58,118 bases of DNA, taken from a virus. The notes below the pieces were generated by a model. It had not been told where the DNA came from. It ran no database searches and saw only the letters and a program-made list of their open reading frames with translations. Both the position numbers and the translations under genes were made by a program. This document shows positions 6,218 to 58,118 of this stretch, in pieces. The stretch spans positions 1 through 58,118 of the IMG/VR virus record IMGVR_UViG_3300023272_000003. One strand, written 5' to 3'. Each line of letters opens with the position of its first letter. Position 1 is the stretch's first letter.

Positions 6218-7369
6218 TTGAATACATCTTACCACAGCAATACTGTTACGTCAACAGTAGACGTTTCCCTAGTTTGTCGGCCCCTGCGCCGCACCCTCTC
6301 GTTTATCGCCTCCCTGACGCGCCGTCGCGGCTACTGCTATGCCGGATGGGACTTTCTCGCGTCGAAGCTCGAATGCTCCACCAAGACCGTACGCCGTCAT
6401 GTGGCGCGCCTGATCGCCTCCGGTATCCTGCGTGTCGAGCAGATCCGCAACCTGCAGCCCCGGTTTTTTATTTGCCCTGAAAGTGTCTGGAATGTGGGCA
6501 CTGTTTGTCCCGATTCTGTCCCTGCTCTTCCTATAGAGGGAGAAGTGAAGCAGAAAAGCAACAAACAGCCAGGGCGCAAGCGCACCCCTGCGCCGATCAC
6601 CGCCCAGGCCGAAGCATCTCCTGTTGTTTGTTCTTCGGCAAAGCCTCTTGAGACGGAGAAACCCCAAGCGGTTGAGACGGTCTCTGTCGTTGAGACGGAA
6701 ACCCAAATTGGCATCACGCACCTATCTGCCATTTCTGCCCAAGAGGAGACTGCCGAGGACGTGGCGGCACTCCTGCGGGCATCGTTGGACGCCGCAGGAG
6801 AGGAGATGCAGGCTTTGGAGAGTGGTGAGAGCCTGGAAGAGAGTGCGGCCGTTTACTGCAATAAAGAGAATTCAGAGGCAATTATAACGGCCGCAACTCA
6901 CAATATAGCCCCGGCCGCTGTCGAAAACATGACGGCCGCTGTACCGGCGCTGCAAGTACGGCCGTATTCTGACACTCCTCCAAAGCCCCAACCCCAGCCG
7001 CTCACGCCGGAACAGACCGCCATCATGCAGGCGCTGGTGCAGGCCGGGGTAGCGCCAGGACAGGCCCGCCAGATGGTTCAGCGTGACGCCACGAAGGCGC
7101 AGGAGGTGATGAAAGCCTATCGGGCCGAGGTACAGCGGGGGCGGGAGATCGAGAGCGCTGGTGGCTGGATCTGGAGCCTATGGAACCGGGAGGGGTTTCG
7201 GTACGTGGAGCGGGGGCAGAAGGCCGCGCCGTCCCACCTCGCGAAAGACCAGGGGTTGCGGATCGTGCCGACGGGCACGGGAGACCGCGGGGCAGCGCCG
7301 CCCGCCAGCGGGGCAGAGGTCTTGGCGGCCCTGCGGCGACGGGGCTTTGGCACGAGCGCCAGGGCGTGA
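6218..7369 (+). CDS. Replication initiator-like protein
   Basis: A 383-residue protein starting with TTG after AAAGGCGG. Residues about 35-95 form a winged helix (WDFLASKLECSTKTVRRHVARL) of the type found in RepA and DnaD-like initiators. A long Glu/Ala/Pro-rich linker (about 110-265) follows. A helical C-terminal domain ends in GGWIWSLWNREGF, resembling the C-terminus of phage and plasmid initiators. Five CGGCCG repeats lie in the DNA encoding the linker (6846-6964), the arrangement known from lambda O, where the origin lies in the initiator gene. A role in origin binding and helicase loading is inferred. Confidence 0.7.
   Translation: MNTSYHSNTVTSTVDVSLVCRPLRRTLSFIASLTRRRGYCYAGWDFLASKLECSTKTVRRHVARLIASGILRVEQIRNLQPRFFICPESVWNVGTVCPDSVPALPIEGEVKQKSNKQPGRKRTPAPITAQAEASPVVCSSAKPLETEKPQAVETVSVVETETQIGITHLSAISAQEETAEDVAALLRASLDAAGEEMQALESGESLEESAAVYCNKENSEAIITAATHNIAPAAVENMTAAVPALQVRPYSDTPPKPQPQPLTPEQTAIMQALVQAGVAPGQARQMVQRDATKAQEVMKAYRAEVQRGREIESAGGWIWSLWNREGFRYVERGQKAAPSHLAKDQGLRIVPTGTGDRGAAPPASGAEVLAALRRRGFGTSARA
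6846..6964. other. Candidate replication origin with CGGCCG repeats
   Basis: CGGCCG at 6846, 6888, 6912, 6933 and 6959, with intervals of 42, 24, 21 and 26 bases (near helical-turn multiples). The second to fourth copies share the extension CGGCCGC, and copies three and four share CGGCCGCTGT. An AT-rich segment lies between the first and third copies. The site is inside the initiator gene. Confidence 0.55.
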
Positions 7370-12718: not shown

Positions 12719-13068
12719 GCAACGAGACGACGGCCCCCACGCGGCCCACCGACCAGGAGATCAACGCCCTCTGCGCCACGCTGTGCGGCTACCAAGTATT
12801 TGCTGACGACGCGCCCATTATGTTACAGGCGATGTCCTGCATACGGCAGAGCGAATGCCCTGACTTCTGCGGCAGTCGGCAACCATCGGCTGAGTGGCTT
12901 CTGCCGATGGTTGCCGAAGACGACAGGGCAGAATTTGTGCGGTATTTGTGGCGATCAGTGGACGTGCGGGACGTGTGGGCCTGCATGACATCCACGCCGC
13001 GCCAGCAAGTAGAGGCAGTGCTGCGGACATTGGGCAAGTGGCCTGCGGAGTGGGAGGAGAGCAGATGA
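12715..13068 (+). CDS. Hypothetical protein
   Basis: A 117-residue acidic protein coupled by ATGA on both sides. It contains INALCATLCGYQV and SVDVRDVWACM; four to five Cys but no regular zinc spacing. No family is recognised. Confidence 0.7.
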   Translation: MSNETTAPTRPTDQEINALCATLCGYQVFADDAPIMLQAMSCIRQSECPDFCGSRQPSAEWLLPMVAEDDRAEFVRYLWRSVDVRDVWACMTSTPRQQVEAVLRTLGKWPAEWEESR

Positions 13069-17647: not shown

Positions 17648-17653
17648 AATACT

Positions 17654-17671
17654 TCTCCCGCCGTCGGGAGG
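17654..17671 (-). promoter_or_regulatory. Hairpin masking a ribosome site
   Basis: CTCCCG and CGGGAG pair (6 bp plus a G-T) around four bases. On the minus strand the 3' arm is the GGGAG of the ribosome site for the TTG at 17647, so folding would hide it. Confidence 0.5.
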
Positions 17672-17716
17672 AATCCGGGCTATCTGCCGCGAACACCCTG
17701 CCCGGACAGCTCGCTA

Positions 17717-17726
17717 CTAACGATAG
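17717..17726. repeat. Operator core CTAACGATAG, copy 3
   Basis: Same ten bases as the core of the repeats at 9724-9737 and 9757-9770, again in an interval between divergent genes. Confidence 0.5.
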
Positions 17727-17781
17727 CTGGCCTGTCTGCCGGGGAAGGCGCTTTGATCGCTAACCCCGGCACTGAATCACC

Positions 17782-17810
17782 AGGGGCCGGGACAGATTGT
17801 CCCGGCCCCT
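17782..17810. terminator. 13-bp GC-rich hairpin
   Basis: AGGGGCCGGGACA and its exact complement around a GAT loop. No T-run follows on either strand. It may end leftward or rightward read-through between the divergent units, or be a protein-binding site. It resembles the hairpin at 8911-8934 in sequence (GCCGGGACAG). Confidence 0.6.
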
Positions 17811-17866
17811 CCCTTTGCGTCACGAAACTATTTTCAAAATTCCCTCCTGTTTGGCCTCATCTACTG

Positions 17867-17895
17867 TTGACATTATAGCGGCTATAGTGTACAAT
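17867..17895 (+). promoter_or_regulatory. Sigma-70 type promoter
   Basis: TTGACA (17867-17872), 17 bases, TACAAT (17890-17895), driving 17954. It shares CTACTGTTGAC at the -35 with the leftward promoter at 9716-9745. Confidence 0.85.
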
Positions 17896-17953
17896 AAGGG
17901 TGTAAGATCCAATAAGGAACTTACTCATCTACCCGACAGGAGAAGAGACGAAA

Positions 17954-38919: not shown

Positions 38920-40407
38920 CTAGGCAGCCTGCTGGGTAGACTTGGTGCCCTGCTGGTTATCAGCACTACCCTGCACAACTACGGGCCGCTTCGCAGACTC
39001 TAAGCGCAATTGTCGCGCTTCCTGCTCGGCGTCTTCTTGGGCTTTGCGCTCCATGTACTCGCTGACCTCGTCTTCTTCCCAACCTTCGCGCTTTAGATAG
39101 AGATCAATGGGGCAGCCTGCTGTTACCGCCGCCTGTGCCGCCTGCCAGAACGCAAGGTTATCTTTGGCAATCTGCGCTTTGTCTGGTCGGCGTGGATCTC
39201 CGAATATCGCCGCTATGTTGGCGTCTTCGTTCAGATTCGCTTTCTGGTAGACGTTCGCGATCTCGGTTGCCCGATGCGCTACCGTCTGCCATGCGGCAGT
39301 AAACTTCTTGATCTGTCGCTGACACTTGCCTACCAGGGGCATCTCAGCGCGACCCAGGGCTTCACCAGAGGGCCAATCGCCTCCCGTGATGCTGTGAAGG
39401 GGTGTGCGGGTCATGCGTGAAACCGCCCGCATCTTCTCATTGTAAACCGCAATGAGTTGCGACATATCACCAGAAGGGAGGACGCCGAACCGCGCTTCAT
39501 TTGTCTCGCTACGGAGTATCTTTCCCGGCCCTATTTCTAATAGTGTCGGGTTGCCATCTTCGTCTCGAACATCACCCATGCCGGTCGCCGTCAGCATCTG
39601 GAATGCCGTCAGACGTGCCGCCGCGCTGATGTCGTACTGCAGGTCATTGATCTGGTCTTGAAAACCAATCACACCGCCTGCAAGCTCCGACACGCCATAA
39701 TTGGCTGGGCCGCGCCCACTGTTGGCAAAATGAATGATAGGGATATGAAGGGGCGAACCGTCTGCTTTCTCCCACGGCTGTATATAGTGCGATTCGCCTG
39801 GAAGAGGATACGGCGAGAACGTCAGGCCGCCCAATGCACCACCACCGCCCTCCGACACATACCGCTCTAGGCGATCCTCGTACCAGACAATACGCCGTGT
39901 CATCACCATGCCATCGATCAGGGCCTGCCAGTCCTTTACGGCATACAGAGGCTCCCCCTGCGCATCGTAGGCGATGAAGACACCGCTTTGCCCGTTCCAC
40001 CAGGGTTCCCGGTGGATACAGACGCGCTCATACTCTTCCGAGTAGGAAAGCGAGACAGCGTAGTTCCCATCACGAAGCGCCGCATAGTGCGTCTCGCCGC
40101 TCTCATCGTCCAGGTTGACCCGCGTCCACCAGTCGTCGAGCCATTCCTGAACGGCAGTGTCTTCGACTTGGAACCGGAGCAACTCCAGCCGGTCTGCGTC
40201 TTCGGCTATGATCTGGTGGCACACGTTGTCGGCAAAGTCGTTGCCCAAGAGCGCCTCAAGCAGCAACTCCTGCTCTGGCGTGAGGGTTCGCAACTGCGCG
40301 CCCAACGCGTACTCCCGATAGGTCTGGATCTTTTTCGCCTGCGTGCGCTCAAAGAACGTGCTACGGTCTATCTCTATCGCTTCGTGATCTGTTTCGATTT
40401 TCGCCAT
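38920..40407 (-). CDS. Portal protein
   Basis: A 495-residue protein between terminase and the head genes. Sequence pattern of SPP1 gp6-like portals: N-terminal region ending FADNVCHQIIAEDADRL, a beta-rich wing, HSITGGDWPSGEALGRAEMPL near the stem and crown, and a Gln/Ala-rich C-terminus. It forms the dodecameric DNA gate. Confidence 0.85.
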   Translation of the reverse strand: MAKIETDHEAIEIDRSTFFERTQAKKIQTYREYALGAQLRTLTPEQELLLEALLGNDFADNVCHQIIAEDADRLELLRFQVEDTAVQEWLDDWWTRVNLDDESGETHYAALRDGNYAVSLSYSEEYERVCIHREPWWNGQSGVFIAYDAQGEPLYAVKDWQALIDGMVMTRRIVWYEDRLERYVSEGGGGALGGLTFSPYPLPGESHYIQPWEKADGSPLHIPIIHFANSGRGPANYGVSELAGGVIGFQDQINDLQYDISAAARLTAFQMLTATGMGDVRDEDGNPTLLEIGPGKILRSETNEARFGVLPSGDMSQLIAVYNEKMRAVSRMTRTPLHSITGGDWPSGEALGRAEMPLVGKCQRQIKKFTAAWQTVAHRATEIANVYQKANLNEDANIAAIFGDPRRPDKAQIAKDNLAFWQAAQAAVTAGCPIDLYLKREGWEEDEVSEYMERKAQEDAEQEARQLRLESAKRPVVVQGSADNQQGTKSTQQAA

Positions 40408-40412
40408 AGAGA

Positions 40413-41783
40413 TTAGTATTCCGACTGCCGCCGCTGCTGCTTCGCCTTTGCGCTTCCGTAGGTGCTGACCGTGACTGTCTTGCTGCCACTCAGTTTATCG
40501 ACATAGGCCACTGCGTACCGCATCGTATCCATGCCGTGGTCGTACTCTTTTACCGGCTCTTCCTTGTTGGGTTTACCGTCAGCACCCTTTGCCCAGAGGT
40601 AGACCTCGAACTCCTGCTCGGTACAGGTTGGCTTCTTCTTATCAAGCAGTTCCTGATCGGGTTCGACCAATGCTCCCTCAAGCAAAAAAATACGGGCTTT
40701 ATTGTCGCCGGCAACCTTGAGCCTCTGTTGTACGGCCTGTATTCCGGGTGAAACTGACTTCCATGCCGCCACGGTCTGGATACCTGCGGCTTTCATCGTC
40801 GCGCGGTCCTCTGCATCATGGTCGGCTATCGTGGCTTCATAGTGCTCATTCCCAGACAGAGCGATAATCTGCTTGGTGAGGTCCGCAACGAGCCGCTGTG
40901 TCTGGTATATCTCCCTGTAGAGATACATCCGGCCATCGGGATCAATAGCCCACCACTGACAGCAGAAAGGGTTCGTGTACCCGAAGTCAATAGACCGGAT
41001 GCGCCGCCACTCTCGCGGTATCTCGAATGGCCGTCGCTTGATATGCAGTGCACGGTCAAACGCTTCGTAAACAGCGCCTTCCGCCTGTACCCACTTGCCG
41101 AGCCGCAAACGCTGATAACGTGAACCGGTCAGGCTGTCCAGAATGGCAAGCGACCGCACTCCCTGCGGGGTGATGTTCCCGGCCTCATCGAACAGCGTAG
41201 GATTGTCTTCGTGCCTGCTCTCCAGCAAGCGCAAGCCTTGCCGCGTCTTGATCCAGTGTGACGGCGGCCCAGGGTTGGCATCTCCAAACATACGCGTGTA
41301 GGGCATCACCGCGCCGCGCCCTGTACAGCGCGTCGTCAGCGTCTCCCAGTCCTCAAGAGTGAATTCCTCTGCCTGATTGACATAGAAGAAATCGCGCTCA
41401 GAAGACAACGCCTTGCCGGGATTGTCCAGGCCGATCACCCAGAGGCGCGAACCGTTCGGGTACTGGAACCACTCCGGCTTTTCGCCCCCATAGGCTTTAA
41501 TTGGGCTGTCGGGGCCGATCACACGAATAAAGGTTTTTATCGCACTTCCGACAAGGGAGGAATAGGTCTTGCGGGCCATAACTCCCTGTGCGCCAGGATA
41601 CTTCCACAACAGAGCGTCGATGTAGTTACAACAGCCCCAGGTCTTGCCGGTTTCGGCTGGGCCTGACACAATGGCTTCAAAGTCGCGAGTCTGCCACAAC
41701 TCCTTAACAGCACCGCGAGGGCAAAAACCTCCGGTCTCTCCCTCGCGCAGTTCTGCTATCTGGTATCGTGCTGTCTGAACCAT
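40413..41783 (-). CDS. terL: Terminase large subunit
   Basis: A 456-residue protein. ATPase: Walker A GPAETGKT (41-48), Walker B region DFFYVNQAEE (131-140). Nuclease: SIDFGYTNP (Asp266), IADHDAEDR (Asp321/323) and a later DHGMDTMRY, the three acidic positions of the RNase H-like nuclease. It packages DNA through the portal. Confidence 0.92.
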   Translation of the reverse strand: MVQTARYQIAELREGETGGFCPRGAVKELWQTRDFEAIVSGPAETGKTWGCCNYIDALLWKYPGAQGVMARKTYSSLVGSAIKTFIRVIGPDSPIKAYGGEKPEWFQYPNGSRLWVIGLDNPGKALSSERDFFYVNQAEEFTLEDWETLTTRCTGRGAVMPYTRMFGDANPGPPSHWIKTRQGLRLLESRHEDNPTLFDEAGNITPQGVRSLAILDSLTGSRYQRLRLGKWVQAEGAVYEAFDRALHIKRRPFEIPREWRRIRSIDFGYTNPFCCQWWAIDPDGRMYLYREIYQTQRLVADLTKQIIALSGNEHYEATIADHDAEDRATMKAAGIQTVAAWKSVSPGIQAVQQRLKVAGDNKARIFLLEGALVEPDQELLDKKKPTCTEQEFEVYLWAKGADGKPNKEEPVKEYDHGMDTMRYAVAYVDKLSGSKTVTVSTYGSAKAKQQRRQSEY

Positions 41784-42278
41784 CTACAAGTCTTCCATCT
41801 TGACCCCGCTGATAATCTTCACAAACAAAGGCTTGTCGGGGTTGCCCGTGATTTCTTGGCTATCTCCCCAATCAGTCTTGCGTCGGCGTTTTAGCCATGA
41901 TTCTGCGGCGCGCCAATCGAACTCTTCAGCAGTATATTCAGTTTCCGTTACTTCTTCTAAAGCCACCGGCTCTTCGACCGTCGTGCCGTCGGGGTGTTTG
42001 ATCTTGCGAGTCTTAAAAATCGTTTTGACTGTTCGGCTTTTGTGGCCCGACTGAAAGCCGCCCGCAGCTTTTTTCATTACTTCGGAATACTCAGCCTCAC
42101 ACTGAGCTTCTGCCTGCGTAACAGCATTGCAAAACTCTGCAAAACTCTTCAACCAACGAGTGAAAGTAGAATAATCAATGCCAACACATTCAGCCGAAGC
42201 AGCACGCGAAACGCCTTGACTCAAAGCCCTTACGATAGCCGCAGCCTTTTCATCGCTATATTTAGTAGGTCTTGGCAT
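41784..42278 (-). CDS. terS: Terminase small subunit
   Basis: A 164-residue protein. An N-terminal helix-turn-helix (SRAASAECVGIDYSTFTRWLK) recognises DNA; a long coiled region oligomerises; the C-terminal WRAAESWLKRRRKTDWGD is typical of this family. The ATG at 42278 is preferred; GTG at 42290 is also in frame. The gene-free stretch upstream is the natural place for a packaging site. Confidence 0.85.
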   Translation of the reverse strand: MPRPTKYSDEKAAAIVRALSQGVSRAASAECVGIDYSTFTRWLKSFAEFCNAVTQAEAQCEAEYSEVMKKAAGGFQSGHKSRTVKTIFKTRKIKHPDGTTVEEPVALEEVTETEYTAEEFDWRAAESWLKRRRKTDWGDSQEITGNPDKPLFVKIISGVKMEDL

Positions 42279-42290
42279 ATTTGCACTCAC

Positions 42291-42670
42291 AAATCAGAAG
42301 CCCGCAGGGAGCGGGGCGAGTACGCTCAACCTGCGGGCGCGTGCTGACGTGGAGGGGTCGGCACAGGGTGGGTAAGTTGTTCTGTGCGGGTCAGATTTGC
42401 ACTGACCGGGTGGTACCTTCCCACCGAGGTTTTCCCTCGGCATACCCCCGTAGGACGCCAACGCTGATGTACCTACCACCGTCGAAGCCGCTGTGTATCG
42501 CGAACACACCGCCGCACAAGGTTAAAAGTTGTCAGTAGTCCAGAATCACCGAATGGCTACGGCCCGCACTGGATGCTCCGCCAGAGTAGAGCGGGGTCGT
42601 CAACCTATGGCAGACGACTGGCGGATCGTAAGGTGATCCCCTGCGTGTCCTATCCACGCCGCTACTGATC
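42291..42670. other. Gene-free, hairpin-rich region upstream of terminase
   Basis: No plausible gene in about 380 bases. Successive stems: 42300-42308/42330-42338 (9 bp); 42361-42366/42382-42387; 42389-42394/42402-42407; 42409-42413/42421-42425; 42424-42429/42435-42440; 42577-42584/42618-42625 (8 bp) enclosing 42597-42601/42613-42617; 42643-42647/42655-42659. This could be a structured RNA, a long leader, or a packaging (cos/pac) site. Confidence 0.6.
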
Positions 42671-42676
42671 GAAAGC

Positions 42677-42706
42677 AAAAGCCCCCAGCGGTTAGGCGGA
42701 GGGCTT
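42677..42706 (-). terminator. Intrinsic terminator of the leftward early operon
   Basis: On the minus strand AGCCCTC pairs with the GGGGGCT side and TTTTGCTTT follows. It lies about 200 bases beyond the stop at 42914 and separates early genes from the terminase operon. Confidence 0.7.
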
Positions 42707-42913
42707 CACAGAAAGGGAAGGGGACTTAGTTCGTCTCTCACGACTACAGGAATTTCGCCTGCATGTAGCCGGTCTCAGTTAAGCCCGGCATTCCGTCCCC
42801 ACATTTTCAGCAGAGGACACGTAGTCCTCTCACCAGTAAGTATAGCCGGTTTTCTCATGGGATGCAATAGGTTTTATAAGCGCAATTAATTATTTTTCAG
42901 AGATTTATCAGAT
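42707..42913. other. Structured 3' untranslated stretch
   Basis: No gene. Contains a 7-bp hairpin (AGAGGAC/GTCCTCT, 42812-42830) and a CTACA...TGTAG stem near 42745-42770, then an AT-rich part next to the stop at 42914. Confidence 0.5.
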
Positions 42914-43408
42914 TCAGGCCGCCTCTCGCTCCTCAATCTCCCGCAATTTGCCTTCCACCCTGCGGGAGAGGATGCGCCCCAGTTTGTTCAACTCGCGCCC
43001 TAGAGCCTGCTGGGCAGTAACATCTTCCTTTGCCATCGCGGTATCACCCCGCTCTGCAATGTAGGTGAACCGCTCTTCGATCAGGTGCGAGGGGGTGAAG
43101 TCCAGAGTCACGACCGGAGTCGCGTTCGCAATGATCTGGGCTTCTGCCGCGTCGTAAGCGTCATTCAGTCGCTTTAGGATCGATTTGCACTGTGACGCTT
43201 TGACCTGCGGCGAGATCCTGGCGCAAAGTTGCTCTACCGTGTAGGGCGGCTCATCTCCCTGCCCCCAATGGGATAGAACGAACATCTGATAATCACGCCC
43301 GGTGAACAACTTCCGCGCCAATTCCCGGCTCTGGAGTTCACAGAGGGTCGGCTTGCGCTTGCGTGGCCTCCCACCGGTTCGTAGTCGCATATTCTCATTG
43401 TCTGCCAT
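42914..43408 (-). CDS. Hypothetical DNA-binding-type protein
   Basis: A 164-residue protein. N-terminal RTGGRPRKRKP is an AT-hook-like motif. The middle has VEQLCARISPQVKASQCKSILKRL, a possible helix-turn-helix, and the C-terminus is helical and charged. It is the last gene of the leftward early operon. It could be a second small-terminase-like or regulatory protein. Confidence 0.7.
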   Translation of the reverse strand: MADNENMRLRTGGRPRKRKPTLCELQSRELARKLFTGRDYQMFVLSHWGQGDEPPYTVEQLCARISPQVKASQCKSILKRLNDAYDAAEAQIIANATPVVTLDFTPSHLIEERFTYIAERGDTAMAKEDVTAQQALGRELNKLGRILSRRVEGKLREIEEREAA

Positions 43409-46726: not shown

Positions 46727-47011
46727 CTAAGCGGGAACTGGGTTAAACCCAAACTTCGGCAAATCCCTCATAAGGGCTAGTTTCTCATGTGTCGCGTAGG
46801 GGTAAAAGGTAGCAACAGCCTTTTCATCCTCCCACTCGGAAAGGCTGAAAAGATAGGTTCTATCGCCGTCCCAATCCTCTGCCTTCAACAGCAGAGGATT
46901 GGGGAATGCCGTTGCATACCGCTTCTCCCAAATCTGGATTTCGGGTTCTGTCTCAGCCCCTCGAAAAAGGTGTATCTCAATTCGGAAAGTAATCTCTCTG
47001 TGTGCGCTCAT
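46727..47011 (-). CDS. Hypothetical protein
   Basis: A 94-residue protein from the ATG after GGGAGG. Beta-rich (EITFRIEIHLFRG, RTYLFSLSEW). Possibly a small beta-barrel or ferredoxin-like fold; no family is recognised. Confidence 0.7.
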   Translation of the reverse strand: MSAHREITFRIEIHLFRGAETEPEIQIWEKRYATAFPNPLLLKAEDWDGDRTYLFSLSEWEDEKAVATFYPYATHEKLALMRDLPKFGFNPVPA

Positions 47012-47120
47012 GCTCTCACCTCCCTGCTCTGTCTTGGAGTGGATGCGGCTTTGGAAAGAAGGGGTTTCAAGGCAGGAGCATCCACACTCCTCCAAAGCCT
47101 GCATTTCCTACCTTGTGCCC

Positions 47121-47591: not shown

Positions 47592-48008
47592 CAGATTACC
47601 TCCTAACTTAACACTGTTAATTGTCTTTACACCACTCAGAGAATAAATACCTAATGGGTCTAATGAGGACTTCTGCTTTTTTCTGCATTCCCTAGGGTGG
47701 GCAGCAGAGAGGCAGTGCGTCACGACAGGCCAGACGGTACCAAAACTCCCGTTTTCACGAGTTAACAGCTTGCCCTATGTGGGTTTGCCGTGCAGTTGGA
47801 GAAAGCTCCCGCCCGACGTGGTTCCCGTTACCACGCCCGAAGTCCTCAGAAGGCTCCTGTCGATTATCGGCCATTGCGCCCAGGCCGACCCGGTACGTAT
47901 TGAAATGCCGTGGGCGGGACTCGAACCCGCGTTGCTCAGTAAACTACCGAGTGTCCTGACCACTAGACGACCACAGTGCCAGTCTCTCCCGGCTGTCTCT
48001 CTCAAAGC
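47592..48008. other. Interval holding a tRNA-like gene
   Basis: Besides the tRNA-like gene at 47906-47977 there is a 6-bp hairpin (CGTGGT/ACCACG) near 47840 and a short stem near 47744-47763 on the leftward side. No protein gene is convincing. A near-palindrome TTAACACTGTTAA lies just upstream of the DUF3820-like gene. Confidence 0.6.
47906..47977 (-). tRNA. tRNA-like gene, predicted anticodon GUU (Asn)
   Basis: Minus strand, 72 bases: 7-bp acceptor with an A1-C72 mismatch and a U-G pair, D-stem GTCT/GGAC, anticodon stem CTCGG/CTGAG, T-arm GCGGG-TTCGAGT-CCCGC, discriminator A, no encoded CCA. The 7-base anticodon loop is TAGTTTA, so position 33 is A rather than U and the anticodon reads GUU. 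A real but divergent tRNA or a decaying one. Confidence 0.7.
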
Positions 48009-49043: not shown

Positions 49044-50926
49044 GCGGCCTCCTGCTGTTGGTAAGATTTCGCCTCACGCTCTGCCTTCATGCGCTCCGCT
49101 CGATAGGCGATCCTGAGCGATGTCAGCTTGCCTTTCGCCTCCGCAAGCGTCATGCGCCGGATCTGCTCATTGCTCACGCCGCCCTGGTTAAGAATCCACC
49201 TGTCGAGAGGCTTCAAAGCGTGGAACGTGGCCGCTCGGTCTGCCGCGTCGGAGTGTTCCGCGATACGCCGGTTCGTCAGCACCGCGATCCGCTCCAGAAA
49301 GGGCGTTAAGGCTTCGTGTTTGTCCTTATCGAACCGGTACGCCTTATTGAACACATCGCTGCCGTCCGGCCCGGTGACGTAGACCGACCACCAGCCTCCC
49401 TCCAACTCCTGCAAATTGTTCGCGTAACCGGGTGTCCCTTTGGAGAGTGCATAACCGGTTTCAGTCGCCTTCCATACCTGCGCTGCTCTCTCTTGGGTGC
49501 GGATCTCTGACGTAGGCTCTCCCAGAGTAACGGTCGCCTTTCCAAAGCCCACCACCAGAGGAGCGATCACCTGCTCACGCTTCTTCCGCTCTACCTCTTC
49601 CGCTTCGCGCTGCTTCTCTTTCTCCTCCGCAAGCAACCGGCGCGCCTCCGTCAAATCCACGTCTTCAGCGGCTATATGGGCCGGCAGATCCAGCAGGTCA
49701 GGCAACTGCATCGGGTTGTGCTTGCCGCTGATGTCCTGGCACTCCAGCACCGTACAGAAAGGCTTATCGCTTGTCTCTATTGCCCAGCGCCGCTCCTCGG
49801 CGGTCTCCAGTCCGTCCACCAGCCCGGAAAGCGGCCTGCCGCCTCTCCCGATGCACTGGGTATAGAGCGACCATATATTCGTAGGCCGCGCCATGATGAT
49901 ACAGGAGCAGGCCGGAACGTCTACGCCCTCCGTCAGCGTCCCATAGTTCACCACCACCGGGAAGCGGCGCGCATTGAACTCTGCCAGGACGCGGAACCGC
50001 TCGCTGCTCTCTGTCGTCACCAGCGCCTTATGCGCAGGATCTTCAGGCTCTTTCGAGACGATGCACTCTGCATGGATTCCCGCCTGCCGCCACAACTCGG
50101 TTGAGTGTACGGCGTGTTCGACAGAGGCGCAGAACATAACCGTTTGCTGCCCCGGCGTCTCCTGCATCCATGCGTTGATAAGCAGGTTGGTGCGCTCTGC
50201 GTTGTCGATCTGATTGGCGAGATCCTTTTCCGCGAGGTCGCCGCGCTTGTCCAATTTCACCCGGCTGATGTCCGTATTCGTCTGCACCGGCTGCCACCGG
50301 AACGGCACGATCCAGCCGTCCCGCTGTGCCTGCTTCAGGCCGTAGGCGAAAACGTGTTTCTCAAAGATTGCCTCTGCCACATCCGCCGCCGTTGGTACGC
50401 CGTTGCGCTCGATCAGAGCAGGCGAACCGTCTACGTTGAACGCGTGAAGCGCCTGCCGGTCGCCGCGTTTGGGAGTGGCCGTCACTCCGATGTGGAACGC
50501 CTCCGGATAAACCGATTTGATTCCCTTGTGCGTATCGCTTCCACACCTGTGCGCCTCATCGTAGATCACCACGTCAGGCCGGAACCAGTAAAGACGAGAC
50601 GGGTTCTTGATCGTCATCAGTGAGCCGACCACCACGCGGCAGGAGTGCGGTGCCACAGCGACATTGATCTCTGGCGCAATGTCGAACTCATCCAGCCCAC
50701 AATGGCGCTGGAGGCTCCTGAGCGCCTGTCCTATGAGTTCCTGCGTGTGCGCCACAAACAGCACGCGTTTGCCGTGTAAGAGCGCATAGCGGGTCAACTC
50801 TGCAGCTACCGTGGTTTTCCCGGTCCCGGTCGCTTGCGTCACCAGTACGGATTTCCATCCCTGCGCCTGTGCCTCCACGACGGAGCAGAACGCCTGCTCC
50901 TGGTAGTACCGAAGCGTCTGCGTCAT
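49040..50926 (-). CDS. Superfamily 2 DNA/RNA helicase
   Basis: A 628-residue protein with SF2 motifs: Walker A ATGTGKT (32-38), DEAH (123-126), TATP (149-152), and QCIGRGGR as motif VI. After the two RecA-like domains comes a charged coiled segment (EEKEKQREAEEVERKKREQ) and a C-terminal domain. It resembles UvsW/RadD-type helicases of phage replication and recombination. In an operon with the methylase and recombination genes, coupled by ATGA. Confidence 0.88.
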   Translation of the reverse strand: MTQTLRYYQEQAFCSVVEAQAQGWKSVLVTQATGTGKTTVAAELTRYALLHGKRVLFVAHTQELIGQALRSLQRHCGLDEFDIAPEINVAVAPHSCRVVVGSLMTIKNPSRLYWFRPDVVIYDEAHRCGSDTHKGIKSVYPEAFHIGVTATPKRGDRQALHAFNVDGSPALIERNGVPTAADVAEAIFEKHVFAYGLKQAQRDGWIVPFRWQPVQTNTDISRVKLDKRGDLAEKDLANQIDNAERTNLLINAWMQETPGQQTVMFCASVEHAVHSTELWRQAGIHAECIVSKEPEDPAHKALVTTESSERFRVLAEFNARRFPVVVNYGTLTEGVDVPACSCIIMARPTNIWSLYTQCIGRGGRPLSGLVDGLETAEERRWAIETSDKPFCTVLECQDISGKHNPMQLPDLLDLPAHIAAEDVDLTEARRLLAEEKEKQREAEEVERKKREQVIAPLVVGFGKATVTLGEPTSEIRTQERAAQVWKATETGYALSKGTPGYANNLQELEGGWWSVYVTGPDGSDVFNKAYRFDKDKHEALTPFLERIAVLTNRRIAEHSDAADRAATFHALKPLDRWILNQGGVSNEQIRRMTLAEAKGKLTSLRIAYRAERMKAEREAKSYQQQEAA

Positions 50927-51570
50927 GCCACCACCTCCGCGAAGAGATCCTGCTGAGGCATAAAGCAGTCGAGGAGCAACTGCGGCTTCAGCACCACAGG
51001 CACAGGCTCACCGTCTGCGACTTTGCAGATCGACTCCGACAAGTCCAACCCGTCCAACTCATTTCCGAGCGATACCCAGTTCTCCCGATAACGGCGCGCA
51101 AACAACTCGATATAGGGGCCGTCGTAGAGTTCCGCGAAGGTGTAAACGTCATCCGGCTTCGCGCTATGTGCGCCCTGTTTGGCGAGGATGATACCGGGTT
51201 GCCTCTCGAATGGTTCCGGCGCGCGAGGGTTGCCCTTTGTGCCGATCATGATGTACTCAGAGCAGGCGCGGGCATGGTAGCCGCAACCGATACGCGGAAG
51301 GCTGTCCTTTGATAGTTTCAGCCAGGGAACACCGGTTTTATACTCGAAGCCCCAAGCCTCCATTAAGGCAAGTCCTTCTGCCATTTTCGGCCACGTACAC
51401 CACATCAGCAGAACGCAGTCGTTAGCCGCAACGCACGCGACAGGTAGAATCTCCATCGATGCCGCCTCTGTGCAATCGTAGTGCGCATCAGGCGAACGCT
51501 TCCGTCCCATCGCGCCATACGTCCAGTACATCCAAGCCGGATCTGCAAGGATAACGCCGAATTTACTCAT
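50923..51570 (-). CDS. MT-A70 family adenine methyltransferase
   Basis: A 215-residue protein. Catalytic motif DPAW (residues 10-13) in place of the usual DPPW, then AND and LLMWCTWP, and RENWVSLGNELDG for S-adenosylmethionine contacts. It makes N6-methyladenine in DNA. Likely protects phage DNA from host restriction. Coupled by ATGA on both sides. The Pro-to-Ala change needs checking for activity. Confidence 0.8.
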   Translation of the reverse strand: MSKFGVILADPAWMYWTYGAMGRKRSPDAHYDCTEAASMEILPVACVAANDCVLLMWCTWPKMAEGLALMEAWGFEYKTGVPWLKLSKDSLPRIGCGYHARACSEYIMIGTKGNPRAPEPFERQPGIILAKQGAHSAKPDDVYTFAELYDGPYIELFARRYRENWVSLGNELDGLDLSESICKVADGEPVPVVLKPQLLLDCFMPQQDLFAEVVA

Positions 51571-57791: not shown

Positions 57792-58108
57792 GCCGCCACC
57801 GCCATTTCTTCCACCACACGCCCCACGGCCTCATAGCGCAGCGTAAACGTAATGGGCTCAGGATCGTCGCGGTCGTCCAGCGCCTGCTCTGCCTCAGCCT
57901 GCCGCAACCACGCCACCAACTCCGGGGGCGTCTCGCACATCGCCGTGCTGCCATCACCCCAGAACATCGAAACATTCAGGTCACTCACCGATACCTTGGC
58001 GAATTCACCCATCGTGCAGGCAATGACCGCCTCCACGACCGTTCGCACCGCGTACTGCCCCAGAAGCGACGCCGGGACGTGGAACGTTTTGCTGACTATC
58101 CTGCTCAT
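57788..58108 (-). CDS. Hypothetical protein at the contig joint
   Basis: A 106-residue protein. Alpha/beta (ASLLGQYAVRTVVEAVIAC, PITFTLRYEAVG), acidic. Its start codon lies in the end repeat and overlaps the stop of the gene at 18-227 when the ends are joined. That shows the leftward operon is continuous across the origin. Confidence 0.75.
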   Translation of the reverse strand: MSRIVSKTFHVPASLLGQYAVRTVVEAVIACTMGEFAKVSVSDLNVSMFWGDGSTAMCETPPELVAWLRQAEAEQALDDRDDPEPITFTLRYEAVGRVVEEMAVAA

Positions 58109-58118
58109 CGGCTCTCCT
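58088..58118. repeat. Terminal direct repeat, copy 2
   Basis: Second copy of the 31-base end repeat. Position 58108, the start codon of the gene ending at 57788, corresponds to position 21 of the first copy. Confidence 0.9.

Follow-up and report, generated by a model that had tools for sequence, protein, structure and literature searches.

What is the role of a gene-free and stem-rich stretch of DNA that lies directly in front of the packaging genes of an uncultivated phage? The window considered here is the whole of a 58,118-base virus record, whose structural genes are on the minus strand. Its first 31 bases (TTTGCTGACTATCCTGCTCATCGGCTCTCCT, positions 1-31) recur as a direct repeat at the end of the record (58088-58118), and thus the map is probably complete and circularly closed. 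Upstream of terS and terL, which are both encoded on the minus strand, there is a gap without genes (42291-42913), which is bordered at 42914 by the stop of a 164 amino acid gene. Its open reading frames have codon-usage scores that are approximately zero or negative, and the best of them, a 42 amino acid frame, reaches +2.9, compared with +29 and +32 for the genes flanking the gap. We have rejected a coding function because no frame in the gap exhibits the codon usage of this genome. The first-pass annotation, which had reported that 42291-42670 contains no gene, is therefore borne out for the entire gap.

We hold it to be somewhat better than an even proposition that 42291-42670 is the promoter-distal two thirds of an untranslated and structured 5' leader of approximately 555 nt, which belongs to the packaging and late operon on the minus strand and begins at a sigma-70-type promoter (42867-42839). 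This reading is drawn from the position of the promoter, from folding that is specific to one strand and from a relative that has the same layout, and these observations also lend support to the late-operon regulatory leader that had been listed among the original options. Most likely, the locus is a control region of a fairly ordinary type, made of a folded RNA that is present in no catalogue.

The predicted promoter ranks fifth among all minus-strand positions in a position-weight scan and is the best of the late half, although the hexamer weights are approximate and the assumed sigma-70 consensus may not be that of the host. From this prediction to the first late gene, the same strand is non-coding throughout. 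The best matches on the minus strand are two near-consensus sigma-70 promoters (TTGACA/TACAAT) at 969 and 1288. The interval of 42291-42670 that was originally outlined is too short, since the unit apparently starts at the promoter. Likewise, a terminator had been described on the early side and was taken to isolate the structured region. This terminator (T1) does exist at 42707-42671, but it sits between the promoter and terS and thus is inside the leader rather than at its border. The features of the locus are collected in the table.

Table. Genes, predicted signals and RNA structures at the terminase locus (positions in the window; L002 is the closest relative)
Feature	Positions	Strand	Basis or remark
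Portal, SPP1-like	38920-40407	-	follows terS and terL in series
terL, terminase large subunit	40413-41783	-	PHROG 2
terS, terminase small subunit	41784-42275	-	PHROG 4102/309; first gene of the packaging operon
Predicted 5' leader transcript, ~555 nt, to the terS ATG	42276-42832	-	promoter position and non-coding status; ends inferred
Conserved 3' element: CAACTTWCCMACCCTGTGSC, then hairpins H3 and H4	42299-42379	-	common to L002 (L002:5486-5562), same position before terS
Hairpin H4	42300-42338	-	loop TA(Y)CTCGCC conserved; in 8 of 11 pairs both partners differ from L002, pairing retained
Hairpin H3 (GTGCCGAC-CCCTCCAC-GTCAGCAC)	42341-42364	-	two compensatory pairs relative to L002
Domain 2, multibranch, closed by TTGTGCGG/CCGCACAG	42382-42519	-	z -3.75; inner hairpins 42441-42423 and 42407-42389
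Domain 1, multibranch, closed by TCAGTAG/CTACTGA	42532-42668	-	z -2.24; closing helix 0.25-0.35 in context
Intrinsic terminator T1 (AAGCCCTCCGCCTAACCGCTGGGGGCTTTTGCTTTC)	42671-42707	-	among the six best minus-strand candidates genome-wide; pair probability 0.91
Domain 0, three hairpins within closing helix GGGGAC/GTCCCC	42720-42800	-	fold of 42671-42845, z -2.74; closing helix unstable in the full-length fold
First leader hairpin AGAGGAC/GTCCTCT	42812-42830	-	pair probability 0.98
Predicted sigma-70 promoter TTGCAT-17-TATACT, leader and late operon	42839-42867	-	position-weight scan
AT-rich (UP-like) stretch GAAAAATAATT	42888-42898	-	upstream of the promoter; 11/11 match upstream of the L002 promoter
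164 amino acid gene, family not assigned	42914-43408	-	directly upstream of the leader (late-regulator position); codon score 32

The minus-strand RNA of 42296-42670 is predicted to fold with -158.2 kcal/mol (z -3.07), and no shuffled sequence folded as well. The plus strand of the same interval yields a z score of only -0.93, and the folding excess is thereby confined to the sense strand, as is fitting for a leader. The most significant sub-region on the minus strand is 42380-42526, and weaker excesses are found for 42525-42672 and 42671-42845, with the z scores given for domains 2, 1 and 0, respectively. The presence of many clear stems, as first described, is upheld by pair probabilities of 0.95-0.98 for the hairpins at 42441-42423 and 42407-42389, and near certainty is also reached at 42618-42596 and 42338-42300. 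When the full-length leader is folded, the small hairpins are again near certain, whereas there is little support for the helices that close the larger domains: that of domain 1 has a probability of 0.25-0.35, and those of domains 0 and 2 are absent from the minimum-energy fold.

The density of stems had also been claimed to exceed that of other gaps in the genome, and this claim holds only in part. When the whole genome is scanned in 375-nt windows, the region ranks among the top few percent for its strand without being unique, since about five minus-strand windows (at 6751, 17626, 2626, 32626 and 13126) are equally or more extreme. With 120-nt windows, stronger hairpins are present elsewhere and the region is unremarkable save for its terS end. 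Taken as a whole, the earlier observation is partly confirmed: the region is real, but it is not uniquely stem-dense. Perhaps most of the stems arise by chance in a G+C-rich stretch that lacks genes and holds a promoter and a terminator of the ordinary kind, and the fold has no function. The matching stem density elsewhere in the genome is in keeping with such a functionless fold, as is the lack of comparative support for domains 1 and 2. However, the z score of about -3 on one strand, the z score of -4.7 for the corresponding leader of a relative and a homologous 3' element with paired changes make this explanation very improbable.

Several other structured elements and one RNA gene are present in the genome. 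A gene-free stretch at 17648-17953 folds strongly whichever strand is read (375-nt z scores of -5.6 and -4.4), is more extreme than the region upstream of terS and includes a perfect 13-bp hairpin (17782-17810). This stretch is probably a bidirectional terminator. Another gap carries a perfect 15-bp inverted repeat, TCGGCAACCATCGGC...GCCGATGGTTGCCGA, at 12876-12917. On the minus strand, local folding is strongest in the window starting at 46801 (z -7.1), where a perfect 13-bp hairpin at 46870-46903 is located within a predicted gene (46727-47104). A tRNA-Asn (GTT) on the minus strand at 47906-47977 is the genome's sole tRNA.

Searches with TerL, which returned 17 and 80 loci, identified IMGVR_UViG_3300025949_000002 (hereafter L002) as the closest relative, with 77% identity in this protein. 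The two phages also share a gene for an MT-A70 type adenine methyltransferase (50923-51570, minus strand), which is 71% identical to its L002 counterpart. Among the TerL relatives whose upstream sequence was examined, L002 is the only one with a long gene-free stretch before terS. In the others, as judged from maps of open reading frames and by eye, terS is close behind its neighbour or the gap is short or appears to be coding. A TerL scan of bacterial genomes produced four distant loci, and the two with usable upstream sequence have no leader-like gap. A scan with the TerL N-terminus for truncated relatives added nothing new, and IMG/VR searches with either terS or the 164 amino acid protein as the single query returned no relatives.

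L002 carries a consensus promoter (TTGACA-19-TATAAT, rank 2 in its genome) at the equivalent place, followed by a 280-nt leader (z -4.70) and then by terS. Both the layout and the structured character of the leader are therefore kept in this one relative. T1, which separates the late promoter from the late genes as in the lambda-type arrangement, has no counterpart there, since a terminator scan recognized none between the L002 promoter and terS, and thus the two phages do not have an attenuator in common. On visual inspection hairpin H4 of L002 resembled a terminator, but it was set aside because its tail failed the scan. The leader of L002 is predicted to close into one domain (L002:5373-5590) by a helix, CAATTTC/GAGATTG, with a probability of 0.99. 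Within this modelled domain the ribosome-binding region of terS is paired (CTCC/GGAG, 0.90), which suggests translational control.

The last 80 or so nucleotides before terS align between the two phages with a score of 39, which was not equalled in any of 1000 shuffles, whereas every other large gap of this genome scores 24 or less. For H3, RNAalifold applied to an unconstrained MAFFT alignment reveals two pairs that have changed on both sides. For H4, the exchanges, counted from the loop, leave no pair broken and the loop is kept. We aligned the H4 stem manually, starting at the loop and moving outwards, a procedure by which a pair of unrelated hairpins would appear compensatory too. What nevertheless speaks for homology of the 3' elements is that the H4 loop is conserved and lies at a constant distance from the upstream block. 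The test for covariation that had been proposed was carried out with two sequences and for the 3' element, and it had a divided outcome: there are compensatory changes in the 3' hairpins, and for the large 5' domains there is no relative to align. No homologous sequence for the leader outside the 3' element was present among what could be searched, and its 5' part has no conserved sequence in L002.

Other comparisons yielded little. When the 3' element was sought by DNA pattern in two scans, only L002 and chance matches, mostly in coding sequence, were recovered, and a blastn search of phage records with the gap sequence produced only chance matches of 20-44 nt. A match to another record, L098 (E 0.009), was rejected because it falls within a methyltransferase gene. 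A conserved pseudoknot between the H4 loop (CTCGCC) and GGCGAG was also dropped, given that the GGCGAG partner exists in L002 but not in this genome.

The conserved element might instead be part of a packaging initiation site (pac or cos), where terminase would bind and cut upstream of terS and the inverted repeats would be protein-binding or DNA-hairpin features. SPP1 and many cos phages have their packaging site directly upstream of terS, where this region is located. The SPP1-like portal and a weak match of TerL to Terminase_3C make headful packaging plausible, and the conserved 80-bp element accompanies a conserved TerL (77%) while terS differs. However, a DNA site does not readily account for excess folding on one strand only or for a promoter that leads into the region, and the exchange of the H4 stems with retention of their loops fits RNA better than DNA that is read by a nuclease. 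In addition, there is no direct-repeat array, and the weak two-copy repeats that are present do not amount to small-terminase boxes. The 31-nt repeat at the contig ends is far from terS and is neutral on this question. We consider a packaging site to be unlikely, although it is the main rival to the leader.

Another possibility is that the region encodes one or two stand-alone structured RNAs, which might act in trans or take part in the packaging motor like the pRNA of phage phi29. One such RNA would be about 160 nt long (42832-42671), and it would be delimited by its own promoter, a structured body and a terminator; a processed RNA of about 370 nt, ending in the strong hairpin H4, could exist in addition or in its place. 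Against this, the 3' element adjoins terS in both phages, as is expected of a cis-acting leader, and the putative 5' RNA has no conserved sequence in L002. A search with Rfam covariance models at the gathering score found no family match, and hence none to the GOLLD, ROOL or phi29 pRNA models. The original option of an unknown structured phage RNA is consistent with this lack of an Rfam match, but nothing points to a stand-alone RNA of the GOLLD or ROOL type, and we find independent RNAs of this kind rather improbable.

If the region is a leader, as we prefer, it probably serves as a point of attenuation or antitermination. Transcription from the promoter at 42867-42839 would mostly stop at T1, about 160 nt downstream, and the late operon would be switched on when polymerase reads through this terminator. 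Perhaps read-through is brought about by a phage protein, for which the candidate would be the product of the gene in the 'Q position' (42914-43408). This 164 amino acid protein matches no Pfam or PHROG family, and so no Q-family protein was recognized upstream of the leader by these two resources. Its AlphaFold model is too poor for a judgement (pLDDT 43). In a MAFFT alignment it has 28% identity to the product of L002:4715-5113, a weak counterpart at the same place that gives no significant tblastn match. Alternatively, the leader RNA itself might cause read-through.

The absence of a recognizable terminator from the L002 leader means that the function common to both phages may instead reside in the 3' element beside the ribosome site of terS. 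The last 80 nt, with two conserved-loop hairpins before the start of terS, would be the conserved functional core of the leader, acting at the terS ribosome site or serving as a landing point for a regulator. A bolder reading is that an uncatalogued cis-acting RNA, composed of the two-hairpin 3' element and the large 5' domains, alone controls read-through or translation of the packaging operon, in the manner of a put RNA or an autoregulatory switch specific to this phage group. We regard this reading as doubtful.

Should the leader control late transcription, it would reveal how packaging is timed in an uncultivated phage lineage and where this timing is set, and its two hairpins with conserved loops would represent a compact RNA element that can be tested in a reporter. 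The locus also illustrates that a terminator beside a gap can sit within a regulatory leader rather than bound it.

Among known systems, the pRNA of phi29 is linked to packaging. GOLLD and ROOL are large, ornate RNAs associated with phages (PMC12286853). The present region shares with all three that it is a large structured RNA candidate in a phage genome, but it differs in matching no covariance model, in being smaller and in its leader placement. It resembles an SPP1-type pac region in its location upstream of terS and in the SPP1-like portal, but differs by its strand-specific RNA folding and its promoter, and no TerS boxes were recognized.

Phage HK022 provides a different comparison. Its put RNA is an RNA-only antiterminator of about 70 nt with two stem-loops, and put RNAs are found in early operons, near the start or within about 270 nt of it, where they bind polymerase (PMC9378689). 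A structured leader RNA after a phage promoter and a two-hairpin element are common to both systems, whereas the conserved two-hairpin element described here comes last in the leader, next to terS. We claim no sequence similarity.

In phage lambda, the late promoter pR' is followed by a short leader RNA and then by the terminator tR'. Late control is exerted by Q, which allows polymerase to proceed past a terminator (PMC6606751, PMC7171158). There are differences from this system, in that we detected no Q homologue and identified no Q-binding or pause element, another 370-nt structured stretch follows the terminator here and L002 has no terminator. Nevertheless, the order of parts is like that of lambda: a gene in the regulator position, a strong promoter, a short folded leader (150-200 nt), an intrinsic terminator and the late genes. 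The locus would be a fresh example of a structured late leader in a phage, and the small conserved element within it is uncatalogued.
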